Below the pieces are notes generated by a model, which was not told the origin of the DNA, did no database searches, and saw only the letters and a program-made list of their open reading frames with translations. 64,000 bases of DNA from Jeotgalibacillus aurantiacus (lineage in GTDB: Bacteria; Bacillota; Bacilli; Bacillales; Jeotgalibacillaceae), in the NCBI RefSeq assembly GCF_020595125.1, contig NZ_JACNMS010000002.1:124001-188000 (forward strand), in the 5' to 3' direction. The position numbers and the translations under genes are program-made. Shown here piece by piece: positions 2,353 through 44,634 of this stretch. Within the stretch, counting starts at the first letter, position 1. Every line of letters begins with the position of its first letter.

Positions 2353-2582
2353 GGGACGGGACCATACTCCGCTCGTTGTCTCGTTCCGGCGACTAGCCCC
2401 TCGAGGTCATAAGTCAAAGCTGAACGAGGGCAAAAGTCAGCCCTCTTTTCATCTTCGCCTTATGCTTGTCGGGGCTGAACGAGTCGCCTCCGCTTTTCTA
2501 AGGCCGGGGGTGAACCCGTCTGTGCTTCAGCCGGTTTCACCTGACCCTTTCCGCCACAGGAGTCTGCGTATGGTCCCGTCCC
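2353..2582 (-). repeat. Interspersed palindromic element, copy A (long form)
   Basis: A 230-bp element bounded by perfect 15-bp inverted arms, GGGACGGGACCATAC (2353-2367) and GTATGGTCCCGTCCC (2568-2582). It holds both internal modules. One is a nested hairpin in which AGCCCC pairs with GGGGCT, CATAAG with CTTATG and GAGGGC with GCCCTC. The other is a hairpin based on GGTGAA/TTCACC. Relative to copy B it is in reverse orientation. It sits directly after the brxB terminator. The 135-codon open frame read through it (2327-2734) is not credited as a gene. Confidence 0.85.
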
Positions 2583-2715
2583 TCCACATCAGCTATAAAA
2601 CCCTCCTTAAATTCTTTGAAAAGAAAGTAAATAAAATAGATGTGTTTTGTCTTGCTGCTACAAATACAATGAATTGTCAGAATAAACTTTTATTTTGTAT
2701 ATTTATTAAAAGGTA

Positions 2716-2744
2716 TTGCATATTTATTTCGTGATCAGTAAAAT
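2716..2744 (+). promoter_or_regulatory. Probable SigA promoter of artPQR
   Basis: TTGCAT at 2716-2721 and TAAAAT at 2739-2744 are spaced by 17 bp in a strongly AT-rich stretch. Several degenerate TATTTATT/AATAAATA half-sites around 2690-2765 could be arginine-repressor boxes. That would suit an arginine transporter, but none matches well enough to call. Confidence 0.5.
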
Positions 2745-2800
2745 ACAAATATAATAAATATACAAAATGATGTATAAAGATACTTGAGGGGGAAGAAATA

Positions 2801-3598
2801 ATGAAGAAATATATGTTACTGACTGCGTTATCGGGAGCCATGGTGCTGAGTGCCTGCGGAAGTTCAGAGGAGGAGGCTTCATCAAACGGAAGTGGATCTT
2901 CTGAAGAAAAGCCGATGCTGACCATGGGAACGTCTGCTGACTACCGCCCATTTGAATATGTTGATACAGCTCAGGGTGATGAGATTATTGGTTACGACAT
3001 TGACCTTGCGAATATGATTGCTGACGAGCTTGGCTTTGAATTTGAAATCATTGATATGGAGTTCAGCGGTCTTGTTACAGCGTTAACGAACGATCAGGTT
3101 GACTTTGTAATGGCTGCAATGACGCCAACAGCAGAGCGAAAAGAAAATGTGGATTTCACAGACGTTTATTATGTTGCACAGGATATGATTATTTCAATGG
3201 ATGGAAGCGGTCTGGCTACGCCGGAAGATCTTGATGGTAAAACGGTAGGCGTACAGCTTGGATCCATCCAGCAGGAATATGTGGATGGACTGGCTGAAGA
3301 GATGGATATTACAGTCGAAACTAGAAACCGTATCCCTGAATTAATGCAGGACGTTATCAACGGACGTTTTGATGCAATTATTGTTGAAAATACAGTTGCT
3401 CAAGGTTATCTCGACAGCAACGAAGAGCTTGTCGGTGAAACGATTGAAGTAGATGAGCAGGAAGCGGGATCAGCTGTTGCCCTTCAAAAAGGCAGCGAAT
3501 GGACAGAAAAATTCAATGAGGTCCTCGCTGAGCTTGAAGAGTCAGGAGAGCTTGATAAGCTTGCAGAAAAATGGTTTGACGGAGCAGCTGCTGAATAA
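2801..3598 (+). CDS. artP: Amino-acid (arginine-type) ABC transporter, substrate-binding lipoprotein
   Basis: A 265-residue family 3 extracellular solute-binding protein. The N-terminus is a lipoprotein signal with lipobox LSAC, so Cys19 should be lipidated and the protein anchored outside the membrane. An acidic Ser/Glu linker precedes the bilobed domain, with GTSADYRPFEY, GYDIDLANMIADELG and the MAAMTPTAERKE hinge typical of polar amino-acid binders. Followed by permease and ATPase genes in the order of B. subtilis yqiX-yqiY-yqiZ (artPQR), next to the same brxB neighbour. Arginine specificity is inferred from that synteny and not from binding-site residues. Confidence 0.9.
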   Translation: MKKYMLLTALSGAMVLSACGSSEEEASSNGSGSSEEKPMLTMGTSADYRPFEYVDTAQGDEIIGYDIDLANMIADELGFEFEIIDMEFSGLVTALTNDQVDFVMAAMTPTAERKENVDFTDVYYVAQDMIISMDGSGLATPEDLDGKTVGVQLGSIQQEYVDGLAEEMDITVETRNRIPELMQDVINGRFDAIIVENTVAQGYLDSNEELVGETIEVDEQEAGSAVALQKGSEWTEKFNEVLAELEESGELDKLAEKWFDGAAAE

Positions 3599-3605
3599 AT
3601 GGATC

Positions 3606-3644
3606 AAAGAGTGCTGGAGCTTGCGATAGCACTCTTTTCTTTTG
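3606..3644 (+). terminator. Intercistronic hairpin between artP and artQ
   Basis: A perfect 10-bp stem, AAAGAGTGCT (3606-3615) with AGCACTCTTT (3628-3637), is followed by a T-rich tail. Such hairpins usually act as partial terminators or mRNA stabilisers, giving more binding protein than permease. Confidence 0.7.
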
Positions 3645-3667
3645 TTGATGAATGAGGAGGAATAGAT

Positions 3668-42426: not shown

Positions 42427-42450
42427 GCTATGGCGGAAAGGAATAAGAAC

Positions 42451-43770
42451 ATGCATTATTACGGAACATCAGGTATCAATGAAAAAGGTCACCTGACCAT
42501 AGGTGGCGTCGACACGATTGAACTGGCGGAAAAATACGGCACGCCTTTATATGTATATGACACGGCTCTGATCAGGGAACGTGCAAGAGGATTTAAGGAA
42601 ACGTTTGAAAAGCTTGGAGTATCATCACAGGTTGCATACGCAAGTAAAGCTTTCTCTTCGATTGCCATGATTCAGCTTATTGAGGAAGAAGGGCTCAGCC
42701 TGGATGTCGTATCAGGAGGAGAACTGTATACGGCTCTTAAAGCAGGGTTTAACCCGGAAAAAATTCATTTTCACGGGAACAATAAAAGCAGACATGAAAT
42801 AGAGATGGCACTTGATGCAGGAGTAGGCTGTTTTGTCGTGGACAACTTTTATGAGCTTGAGCTGTTACCTGAAGTGTGTAAAGAAAAAAATACGACTGCC
42901 AGTATTTTGCTCCGTGTAACACCTGGAATTGAAGCGCATACCCATGATTATATTCTGACTGGACAGGATGATTCGAAATTTGGATTCGGCCTTCAGAACG
43001 GTCAGGCAGACGAGGCTTTACAATCAGCGCTTGAAAATCAAAATCTTCGAGTGCTCGGTCTGCACTGTCATATCGGGTCTCAGATCTTCGAAACAACCGG
43101 CTTTATTAAAGCTGCTGAAAGAATGATTGAAAAGCTGGCTGAGTGGAAAGAGCGCCACAGCTTCGAATCAGAAGTGTTAAATCTTGGTGGGGGATTCGGT
43201 ATCAGATATACAGAAGAGGATACTCCGATCGCACCGGCAAGATATGTAGAAGACATTATCAGTCATGTGAAGGATCAGATGGGTCAGCGTCATTTGTCTA
43301 TGCCTGAGATCTGGATTGAACCCGGGCGCTCACTTGTAGGGGATGCAGGAACGACGCTGTATAAAGTCGGTTCTACAAAAGAGGTACCTGATATCAGGAC
43401 TTATCTGGCAGTAGACGGTGGAATGAGCGATAACATCAGACCGGCGCTTTACAAGGCGCGTTATGAGGCAGTGATCGCCAATCATCCGGAAGCTGTGAAT
43501 GACAACGTTGTATCGATTGCCGGTAAATGCTGTGAATCTGGAGATATGCTGATCTGGGACTTACCAATCAGTGATGCTAACCCGGGAGATGTCCTGGCTG
43601 TATTCTGTACAGGCGCATACGGTTACGCGATGGCAAACAACTATAACAGAATTCCAAGACCTGCCGTCGTATTTGTTGAAAATGGAGAATCTGAGCTGAT
43701 CATCGAGAGAGAAAGCTATAAAGATCTGATCAGACATGACAGACCATTAAAAGCAGGAAACAAGCAATGA
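42451..43770 (+). CDS. lysA: Diaminopimelate decarboxylase
   Basis: A 439-residue PLP enzyme making L-lysine from meso-diaminopimelate. The Schiff-base lysine is in VAYASKAFSS; HCHIGSQI and GGGFGIRY bind cofactor; CCESGDML holds the active-site cysteine near the dimer interface. ATG 42451 follows GGAAAGGA; a 21-nt upstream start is rejected because that extension carries the ribosome-binding site. The length equals B. subtilis LysA, and it follows spoVAF as it does there. Confidence 0.95.
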   Translation: MHYYGTSGINEKGHLTIGGVDTIELAEKYGTPLYVYDTALIRERARGFKETFEKLGVSSQVAYASKAFSSIAMIQLIEEEGLSLDVVSGGELYTALKAGFNPEKIHFHGNNKSRHEIEMALDAGVGCFVVDNFYELELLPEVCKEKNTTASILLRVTPGIEAHTHDYILTGQDDSKFGFGLQNGQADEALQSALENQNLRVLGLHCHIGSQIFETTGFIKAAERMIEKLAEWKERHSFESEVLNLGGGFGIRYTEEDTPIAPARYVEDIISHVKDQMGQRHLSMPEIWIEPGRSLVGDAGTTLYKVGSTKEVPDIRTYLAVDGGMSDNIRPALYKARYEAVIANHPEAVNDNVVSIAGKCCESGDMLIWDLPISDANPGDVLAVFCTGAYGYAMANNYNRIPRPAVVFVENGESELIIERESYKDLIRHDRPLKAGNKQ

Positions 43771-43853
43771 AAAAACAGAATGCGATTACTTTTATCGTGC
43801 TTTTAATCCTTGCTGTCATATGGGGAATTATTTACTGGGCATTTATTGCGTAA
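43767..43853 (+). CDS. Single-span membrane miniprotein coupled to lysA
   Basis: A 28-residue frame, basic start MKKQN then one hydrophobic helix (AITFIVLLILAVIWGIIYWAFIA). Its ATG overlaps the lysA stop (ATGA), with AGGAAA 8 nt upstream. The composition is that of a real membrane peptide and coupling would guarantee translation. I do not recognise the family. Expression is not proven. Confidence 0.6.
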   Translation: MKKQNAITFIVLLILAVIWGIIYWAFIA

Positions 43854-43980
43854 AACAGGTATTTTGGCCGTGATTGAATTCACACAGGGTTTCTAGTATG
43901 ATTAAGAGCGGCAGCAGTAACAGGAAAGAAGAGAATCTGCGTGGTCAGCTCTCTACTACAACTTTGATAAGGAGTACCTT

Positions 43981-44343
43981 ATGTTAATACGTTATAAAAA
44001 ATCCTTTGAAAAAATCGCAATGGGGCTTATGTCTTTCATGCCAACTGAAAAGGATATCAAACAGCTTCAGCAATCCATGAAGCTGTATGAAGAGGACCAG
44101 CGCTATCAGCTTTTCCTATGGAAGGAAGAGGATATCATCGGGTTGGCTGGCGTATTCATCGAAGAGGATGCCGTGACGCTTCAGCATATTTCCGTTAATC
44201 CATCTCACCGGAACGAAGGGATCGGGCGCAAAATGGTTGAAACGTTGAAAGAGATTTACGCTGATAAACAGTTAAAAAGTAATTCGTACACGTCAGGTTT
44301 TATGGCGAGATGTGATGAACATAAAGAAAACACCGCAGAATAG
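43981..44343 (+). CDS. ribT: GNAT acetyltransferase-like protein RibT
   Basis: A 120-residue GNAT-fold protein almost identical in plan to B. subtilis RibT: it opens [16 protein letters not shown] and has the acetyl-CoA motif [19 protein letters not shown]. In B. subtilis it is the last gene of the riboflavin operon; here no rib biosynthesis gene and no FMN riboswitch lie upstream, so the gene stands alone. AAGGAGTACC precedes the ATG. Its enzymatic role is unknown. Confidence 0.88.
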
Positions 44344-44362
44344 CGGTGTTTTCTTTATGTTC
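44317..44362 (+). terminator. Terminator overlapping the 3' end of ribT
   Basis: A perfect 20-bp inverted repeat (44317-44336 with 44343-44362), 6-nt loop. One arm is coding sequence for the last residues of RibT and the stop codon spans the loop end. The T-rich segment lies in the second arm. Confidence 0.85.
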
Positions 44363-44373
44363 AATTAAAAACC

Positions 44374-44634
44374 GTGCCGGGGACATCCTCCGCTTTCCAT
44401 TGTCTAGCTGCGACGAGCAGGGACTAGCAAACTTCCCGTCCCCTCGTCCGATAAGTCAACATCAGTTCACTGCGTTCACTGTGTTTCCTTTATCTCCGTC
44501 GGGGCCAGTCCAGTTTGTACGTCCCTGAGCGCCCGCCTCCGCTTTTCAGTGGCCGGGCGGTGAACCCGCTGTGCTTCGCACATCGGTTTCACCTGTCCCT
44601 TTCCGCCATAGGAGTCTCCGGATGTCCCCGGCAC
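44374..44634 (-). repeat. Interspersed palindromic element, copy G (long form)
   Basis: A 261-bp element with perfect 15-bp arms GTGCCGGGGACATCC (44374-44388) and GGATGTCCCCGGCAC (44620-44634), in reverse orientation. Read on the minus strand, the tip of the first module is TGTGC-GAA-GCACA, fully paired. The second module has diverged from copies A and C but keeps GATAAGTCA and TCGGGGC. AAAAACC precedes the left arm. It lies at a break in gene order between ribT and ypuF. Confidence 0.85.

Follow-up and report, generated by a model that had tools for sequence, protein, structure and literature searches.

What kind of DNA is a short palindromic repeat that recurs seven times within 64,000 nucleotides (nt) of a bacterial genome, with a common core and with ends that differ from copy to copy? 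The stretch, referred to here as 'the window', comes from Jeotgalibacillus aurantiacus (contig NZ_JACNMS010000002.1, positions 124,001 to 188,000). The original prediction, made from its letters, reported seven copies of one family in both orientations, and left open whether they were transposon-like, structured repeats or RNA. All seven positions were confirmed, and copies do lie on both the plus and the minus strands. The family is numerous in this genome and spread through the order. The outer stems of its copies pair almost perfectly despite their different sequences; stem changes at sites shared with a sister species are mostly uncompensated; the two species differ in where elements are present; and, within the genus, many copies lie on one particular side of transcription terminators. 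Decay, pairing, presence/absence differences and polarity together favor mobile hairpin DNA. Our leading explanation, which we hold tentatively and with a little under half of our confidence, is that the copies are non-autonomous mobile DNA hairpins, recognized by their structure and moved by an enzyme that our searches did not identify. These properties suggest a small mobile DNA of a sort not yet described in Bacillales; no description of the family appeared among the literature matches listed, by topic or by sequence string, in a search that left subscription papers mostly uncovered, and the papers listed for sequence strings dealt, by their titles, with other subjects.

The copies in the window, and the modules inserted in three of them, are these (positions are those of the window):

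2353 to 2582, minus strand: copy 1, long form, with arms GGGACGGGACCATAC / GTATGGTCCCGTCCC, core and inserted module (sequence and covariance model)
2375 to 2498, approximate limits, minus strand: module in copy 1, of the CGACTAGCCCCTCGAGGTCATAAG...CGCCTCCGCTTTTC type (sequence and sister alignment)
6305 to 6417, plus strand: copy 2, short canonical form, with 15-bp arms and an 83-nt core (sequence and covariance model)
10743 to 10978, plus strand: copy 3, long form, with a type B core and one module (sequence and covariance model)
10833 to 10955, approximate limits, plus strand: module in copy 3 (comparison with short type B copies)
13858 to 13914, plus strand: copy 4, core-deleted remnant, with 13 of 15 arm pairs round a module tail (sequence)
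17082 to 17138, plus strand: copy 5, core-deleted remnant, with degenerate arms pairing at 12 of 15 (sequence)
32960 to 33072, minus strand: copy 6, short canonical form, with arms GGGCCGTATTCCACC / GGTGGAATACGGCCC (sequence and covariance model)
44374 to 44634, minus strand: copy 7, long form, with a different module type (sequence and covariance model)
44399 to 44547, approximate limits, minus strand: module in copy 7 (sequence)

Two copies are thus short (113 nt), three are long (230–261 nt, with the extra module) and two are degenerate (57 nt). A covariance model recovers the five larger ones at E <= 5e-10; at E <= 1 it lists neither of the 57-nt copies. The inverted arms predicted for the ends are present, in that the end 15-mers pair at 12 to 15 of 15 positions, but their sequence is not common to the copies. 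Pairing is complete (15/15, read in the orientation of the element) in copies 1, 2, 6 and 7; in copy 3 it is 12/15 with the limits first proposed and 13/15 in another placement. Open reading frames (ORFs) of 135 and 121 amino acids run across copies 1 and 3, and we take them to be chance readings of the sequence; copies of this kind can confound the annotation of small ORFs.

The element has a regular plan. Read in its own orientation, it has an arm of 15–16 nt, then G-N-A, GACTCCTGTGGCGGAAAGGG(A/T)CAGGTGAAACCG... and a small loop of the GCGAAGC type; it continues with ...GGGTTCACCGCCCGGCCACGGAAAGCG, N-A and the complementary arm, followed by CGGTTTT. The arms mostly begin with G and finish in CC. 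The constant core, about 80 nt long, occurs in two types, A (GGTGAAAC) and B (GGTGAGAC). The modules of the long forms, about 120–150 nt in length, enter at one point of the core, between ...GGCC and GGAAAGCG. GNA/GNA internal loops and the GCGAAGC loop are motifs known from stable DNA hairpins. Folding of copies 2 and 6 gave z-scores of -5.0 to -8.4 as DNA or RNA and for either strand, with none of 200 shuffles as low. The outer part of the element differs in other genera (GTTGATTGGAGCGGAA... / ...GGAGCGGAAATCAAC), and the inner paired segments there are again copy-specific by eye; within the genus, the outer paired segments vary too in genomes G007 and G009 (also by eye).

The prediction that such elements would be numerous genome-wide was borne out by three kinds of search, all of which found far more than seven. 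The J. aurantiacus genome (3.5 Mb in 19 contigs) yielded at least 43 matches by BLAST with one copy (the best 40 of 164 candidates having been scored), and at least 150 by a covariance model based on 33 short copies whose rows were preselected for arm pairing (the best 150 of 1032 first-look candidates, even the weakest having E = 9e-8). A strict core pattern, with 21 positions defined, had 126 exact matches. Of 397 genomes of the order, 122 contain the same pattern, as do 41 of 135 genera (the reversed pattern, used as a control, is in none), with more than 100 copies in five of the 397, so that these repeats are abundant in many Bacillales. Within the genus, copy numbers span none to more than 100: by BLAST, 8 of the 12 genomes have the family, one of these through a lone weak match; by the strict pattern seven have it and five species do not. 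Viral contigs held no exact match to the strict pattern, and phage records gave none to the one query used, of Bacillus type. Plasmid records gave none to the J. aurantiacus type of query and 17 to the Bacillus type, in Priestia, Peribacillus, Bacillus, Paenibacillus, Niallia, Sporosarcina and Cytobacillus; two of these 17 carry the annotation of a hypothetical protein over the element.

The outer stem varies far more than the core. Among 35 type A copies, mean identity is 0.60 in the arms and 0.919 in the core, and 33 distinct arms occur; among 17 type B copies the values are 0.641 and 0.908. Nevertheless, the 15-position stem is paired in 98.8% of 495 cells, 138 of them changed on both sides, and its covariation score is 0.774, where shuffles give 0.163 and slid partners no more than 0.143. 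The rows for this calculation were 33 of 52 short copies (32 type A and 1 type B) and were required to pair at 13 or more of 15 positions. Among elements chosen by core alone, 47 of 55 in J. aurantiacus pair at this level, and the other eight comprise six long forms that pair elsewhere (13–15 of 15) and two one-sided chimeras. In the sister species (see below) 45 of 72 do so; 22 of the other 27 pair at 12 or more elsewhere, three at 11, and two do not. Mismatches are few among elements with at least 11 pairs: 7 G-T, 1 A-C and 8 others in 720 cells of J. aurantiacus, and 5 G-T, 3 A-C and 14 others in 690 cells of the sister. Wobble pairs are therefore rare in the arms of both genomes (12 G-T and 4 A-C, next to 22 other mismatches, in 1410 cells); at one inner pair, 16 of the 33 copies have U-G or G-U. 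So few wobble intermediates fit arms of which one is copied from the other, or on which selection acts as a unit. The arms form a network of small steps, the nearest copy differing on average at 1.43 of 15 positions versus 2.83 after column shuffling (1.36 versus 2.66 in the sister). Stems that are paired despite different arms suggest that pairing is needed, or is re-made, when the element is copied.

How copies change once they are in place can be seen in Jeotgalibacillus sp. R-1-5s-1 (G004), the sister species referred to above. Its genome is collinear with that of J. aurantiacus, mostly at 89–95% identity over the compared blocks, and many copies are orthologous, which makes counts from the two genomes dependent. 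In the window, where the comparison covered the sites of copies 1 to 6, copy 1 has a sister counterpart whose arms are the same but for one change and from which most of the module is missing; copy 2 has an orthologue with the same arms; and that of copy 3 has three uncompensated arm changes. Copies 4 and 5 are not present at the sister sites. At the site of copy 6 the sister carries a chimera whose arms are mismatched and whose flank is unrelated.

Of all 41 flank-matched pairs, 31 were retained, and 18 of the 31 element sites have the same arms in both species. Their 270 arm pairs show 19 that are one-sided or broken versus three kept by double change, and divergence is 4.6% in the arms and 3.8% in the core (13 same-length cores, with single values up to 10.6%). 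Two of the retained pairs are doubtful, the one-sided chimera at 690.7 kb of J. aurantiacus contig C2 and a one-flank match at L019, with four one-sided changes each; the count without them is 11 versus 3 at 16 sites. The ten pairs left out comprise three non-elements and seven genuine pairs: C2:126.6 kb (copy 1), C2:393.5 kb, C2:683.4 kb, one L019 pair, C2:551.9 kb (decayed), C2:618.8 kb (a degenerate neighbor) and L018 (different arms). Adding the first five of these, through the decayed pair, gives 19 versus 4 at 21 sites. Arm pairing is thus mostly not maintained in place, with compensated change at two or three sites.

The remaining 13 of the 31 comparisons, at 11 places, involve differently armed elements, and 12 of the 13 have at least 13 pairs in both species; four come from two exchanged pairs, and L018 would add another place. 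Both flanks are conserved at C2:551.1 kb and L014, and L023 comes close to this. The two species share, at C2:658.5 kb, the 3' flank and the outer halves of the arms, and differ in the inner arm halves and core. One-sided chimeras occur at C2:376.4, 461.5 and 690.7 kb, and modules have been gained or lost inside conserved arms at C2:42.6, 393.4 and 528.9 kb. Sites where an element is present in one species and absent from the other were observed as well, the direction of change not always being clear. We rejected the idea that the target site supplies the arms from a hairpin of its own, since element-free sister sites lack the arms; the tendency of arms to start with G and end in CC was also counted against it. 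An apparent exception, C2:410.4 kb, where the sister has a full element, looks like a core-deleted copy. Finally, an inversion of element pairs was considered: inverted neighbors seem to have been swapped between the species, arms included, at C2:24.1 kb (L005) and C2:802 kb (L007), but with spacers that could not be aligned by eye.

Many copies in the genus also have a characteristic position with respect to transcription terminators. Terminator-like hairpins, detected by a simple custom rule or by eye, lie near the 3' side in five of the seven window copies: by scan at 2353, 6305, 32960 (weak) and 44374, and by eye at 13858. Four of these can be delimited:

2306 to 2342, plus strand: predicted intrinsic terminator adjoining copy 1 on the 3' side of the element, its T-run starting 16 nt from the arm
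6441 to 6479, no strand assigned: intrinsic terminator-like hairpin 3' of copy 2 as the element reads, 28 nt away
13938 to 13968, no strand assigned: intrinsic terminator-like hairpin 3' of copy 4 (by eye)
44326 to 44353, plus strand: intrinsic terminator-like hairpin 3' of copy 7, 20 nt away

Of 61 J. aurantiacus elements, 25 have such a hairpin within 80 nt on their 3' side and 3 have one on their 5' side (p = 2e-6); in the sister the figures are 28 and 2 of 72 (p = 5e-8), and among random windows 91 of 2970. Hairpins that point towards the element number 20 on the 3' side versus 1 on the 5' side in J. aurantiacus and 22 versus 0 in the sister, and the modal distance from T-run start to arm is 20 nt. 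Two further species of the genus, in which 30 of 58 places were used, give 7 versus 0 of 30 (p = 0.01). The terminator usually appears to be separate from the element, because sister sites keep it: of seven inspected by eye, four retain the 3' terminator (one beside a different short element), one has a terminator about 100 nt away, it is missing at C2:110.1 kb, and none is clear at the last. The hairpin 3' of copy 4 is likewise kept at the element-free sister site.

Polarity of this kind recalls group IIC introns, which often lie a short distance downstream of intrinsic terminators (PMC3240598), and the copies could then be cargo of a terminator-targeting retroelement. The likeness is one of targeting only: a large minority of copies in the genus lies just beyond intrinsic terminators, and other genera show no such bias. 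The element is a hairpin of 113–260 nt, in which no ribozyme was seen, none having been sought, and the reverse transcriptase domain RVT_1 was found in only 5 of the 12 genomes of the genus and in none of G004, G006, G008 and G009. A reverse transcriptase was accordingly rejected as a required partner within the genus, being missing in the copy-rich sister, and of the explanations considered here we give the least credence to retroelement cargo.

Gene context, judged from crude ORF calls and omitting four elements inside called ORFs (one of them not a real element), raises another alternative. Of 31 intergenic copies, 12 lie between convergent genes, which account for 10% of intergenic bases (p = 3e-5); in other genera 4 of 57 are so placed. 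The elements might be structured RNAs, or bidirectional terminators, at gene ends that host selection maintains. The strong RNA fold on both strands suits this, as do three compensated arm changes at two shared sites. Between tandem genes, however, copies occur in both orientations (11 the same, 6 opposite), many copies lie beyond an existing terminator, G-U intermediates are few in the arms, and copy number within this one genus ranges from nil to over 100. Above all, arm changes in orthologues are mostly uncompensated on every count given above, which speaks against an RNA or terminator that the host keeps at each site. The earlier option of a structured RNA is thus disfavored in its locus-specific form; we consider an RNA or terminator of this kind improbable.

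If the elements are mobile, something must move them. The copies were said to code for no transposase and to resemble no named family that was recognized, and both points were borne out: no transposase was seen in any copy, and Rfam gave no match on copies at its gathering threshold in the window. Four element loci searched at E <= 1 gave two sub-threshold matches only, one of which, MIR1883, lies over the element in L004 (27.3 bits versus 128, E 0.24). The search that the original prediction proposed, for a transposase or reverse transcriptase with matching ends, found none that tracks the element. Nor did an autonomous version emerge: no partner arm lies within 620 nt of 3 of 76 5' halves in J. 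aurantiacus and 7 of 84 in the sister, and for these ten there is none (>=12/15) at 0.62–4 kb either, in the part of each genome that was covered.

One candidate is the family of Y1 transposases, namely those related to IS200 or the RAYTs (tyrosine transposases associated with REPs, the repetitive extragenic palindromes), since recognition of a hairpin with a free stem sequence would suit a Y1 enzyme. When 20 copy-rich genomes were chosen from the order, 16 proved to encode a Y1_Tnp protein; it is missing from four, including G007 (40 strict copies in an assembly of 2 contigs) and G339 (34 copies, 1 contig), and is present in three of the five genomes of the genus that lack strict-pattern copies. 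RAYT genes occur in 9 of the 12 genomes of the genus, and a RAYT was rejected as a required partner there because copy-rich G007 has none. No element copy lies within about 1.5 kb of the genus's 14 Y1_Tnp (RAYT) loci, and one of those in J. aurantiacus stands, by eye, beside a different repeat. The REP-like possibility raised earlier therefore keeps its many palindromic copies and loses its enzyme, for RAYTs do not track the element; repeats mobilized by RAYT or IS200-like transposases seem to us distinctly improbable. The RAYT-like gene just mentioned (L032, contig C1:173670–177008) is flanked by GGGGACGGAGC...GTTCC hairpins, possibly that RAYT's own REP-like repeats.

A classical MITE (miniature inverted-repeat transposable element) of an insertion sequence with a DDE transposase would also be short and noncoding, with terminal inverted repeats and many intergenic copies, and to this extent the MITE-like option stood. 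But the terminal arms are not one common or fixed sequence, and a clean site showed no target-site duplication. Of 76 5' halves in J. aurantiacus, moreover, the three without a near partner have none at 0.62–4 kb (about 584 kb and 30 loci). A plain MITE is disfavored, and we rate it very improbable.

Several results weigh against mobile hairpin DNA as well, and they begin with the failure to find a mobilizing gene. The terminator polarity of the genus is not seen in other genera (8 on the 3' side and 9 on the 5' side of 44 loci, those of 57 with a placeable 3' end). Most full/empty sites have flanks that differ over tens of bases, so that insertion and deletion are not always distinguishable, and no target-site duplication of the armed element was seen at the single clean full/empty pair; the earlier observation that there is none agrees with that pair, the other sites being unclean. 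Three double arm changes at two sites (two at L026, one at C2:634.2 kb) could be in-place compensation, which makes this explanation slightly weaker and the RNA alternative slightly stronger. The extra flank at changed sites has no source elsewhere in the covered parts (about 584 kb of C2 and 30 loci of J. aurantiacus, and about 1.38 Mb of the sister), bar one weak 30-nt match (E 0.007). Near-identical arms occur with both core types, identical ones in one arm type of J. aurantiacus and three of the sister. Core distance hardly depends on arm distance in J. aurantiacus, and in the sister the relation is noisy, rising somewhat; arm neighbors share a core type at 0.69 versus 0.52 after shuffling (p = 0.004) and, in the sister, at 0.59 versus 0.49 (p = 0.07). 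Arms and cores have therefore been partly recombined, and in-place exchange or gene conversion contributes.

Partial recombination keeps alive a further alternative, concerted evolution. According to this, the repeats are old and mostly immobile: ectopic gene conversion homogenizes their cores, the arms drift as matched pairs, and recombination swaps whole elements in place from site to site. The near independence of core and arm distance in J. aurantiacus, the small-step arm network, the sharing of arms between core types, the 13 differently armed comparisons and the one-sided chimeras all agree with it. Same-length orthologous cores nevertheless differ by 3.8% on average, so that conversion is infrequent on this time scale, and neither the terminator polarity nor the absence of the strict pattern from 5 of 12 species of the genus is explained. 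Donor flanks were not found, within partial coverage: gene conversion that imports donor flank was tried and rejected, as the covered parts offered, for 13 extra flank strings (two of them spacers), no further source beyond a tandem repeat within its own locus (L014) and the weak match noted above. We judge concerted evolution unlikely, though to be taken seriously.

How, then, might mobile hairpin DNA of this kind work? The element would act as a folded hairpin in which the constant core holds the internal helices and an outer stem of 15–16 bp must pair, its sequence being largely free. New copies would arise with a paired stem, either because pairing is required for recognition or because one arm is copied from the other, and the mobile form would most likely be a folded single strand. 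After insertion a copy would drift as neutral DNA. In the genus the 3' end (the CGGTTTT side) would often come to lie about 20 nt from the T-run start of an intrinsic terminator, and the modules would be separate DNA that inserts at one point of the core. We infer movement as a folded single strand, re-templating of the arms and an enzyme acting in trans. A more specific version, a class of mobile DNA known by its shape and not its end sequence, in which a constant-core hairpin of single-stranded DNA would re-pair or rewrite its stem at each copying, with one arm as template for the other, and be placed, with polarity, behind terminators by a probably chromosomal enzyme of Bacillales, is possible but doubtful. 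Were the elements mobile, an enzyme would be needed that reads the shape of a hairpin rather than the sequence of its ends, and the copy-specific stems would be a natural record of arm copying. The terminator polarity would link transcription termination with DNA insertion in a way that can be tested.

Known systems resemble the element in some respects. REP/RAYT systems follow the logic of single-strand hairpins, and REPs too are palindromic, extragenic repeats; the element differs in its size (about 113–260 bp), its copy-specific outer stem and the lack of any cognate RAYT found. REPs are 20–40 bp long with a tag at one end, and MITEs (BOX, RUP, NEMIS, EFAR and others) are non-autonomous, noncoding and 70–300 bp long, with terminal inverted repeats of 15–30 bp (PMC3733652). 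The element shares with MITEs that it is short, noncoding and multicopy, but its arms vary. Target duplications, which MITEs usually show, were not seen at the one clean site. Pneumococcal elements insert into one another (PMC10969869). The bcr repeats of the Bacillus cereus group are interspersed and 100–400 bp long, with mobile features and up to 130 copies of bcr1, which is described as restricted to that group; a TTTAT motif is tied to their mobility (PMC6542083). Compared by description only, the element differs from bcr1 in not being so confined, and the likeness, a three-module array between TTTAT copies in the sister, concerns modules and not the armed element. That array (G004 C7, about 11.9–12.35 kb, corresponding to window position ~25195) lacks arms and is present in the sister only. 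Bhal-1 of Bacillus halodurans, 74 bp long and present in 36 copies, has a conserved structure in a catalogue of stem-loop families (PMC2267715). It is possibly a member of the same wider family, judging by its description; the available part of that account holds nothing on copy-specific arms, spread or mechanism. Integron attC sites are recognized as folded single strands and combine variable sequence with conserved structure; the element is like them in this logic only.

Some minor observations complete the picture. Two plasmid copies (NZ_CP028214.1, 22986–23076, and NZ_CP118105.1, 112856–112946) lie downstream of gnd in a cluster of zwf, gnd and glucose-6-phosphate isomerase genes, and a Tn3 family transposase is annotated beside the second. 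In another genus a copy (L149) is interrupted by what we take to be the end of an insertion sequence. At the loci from other genera (L131–L160 and L201–L229), a AGCAACAAAGTTTACGAAAACAGCC-like motif lies downstream in 24 of 56, versus 1 of 56 when the position is shifted as a control and 1 when the reverse strand is read. By eye, no strand bias of copies is evident along contig C2 of J. aurantiacus, and in the covariance-model list contigs C4 and C7 seem richer in copies than C1. Outside the copies, Rfam at its gathering threshold matched only two features of the window: a T-box leader (RF00230) at 20436–20643 on the minus strand, with 100.1 bits, and the Listeria small RNA sbrA (RF01489) at 1630–1701, also on the minus strand, with 45.2 bits against a gathering score of 45.

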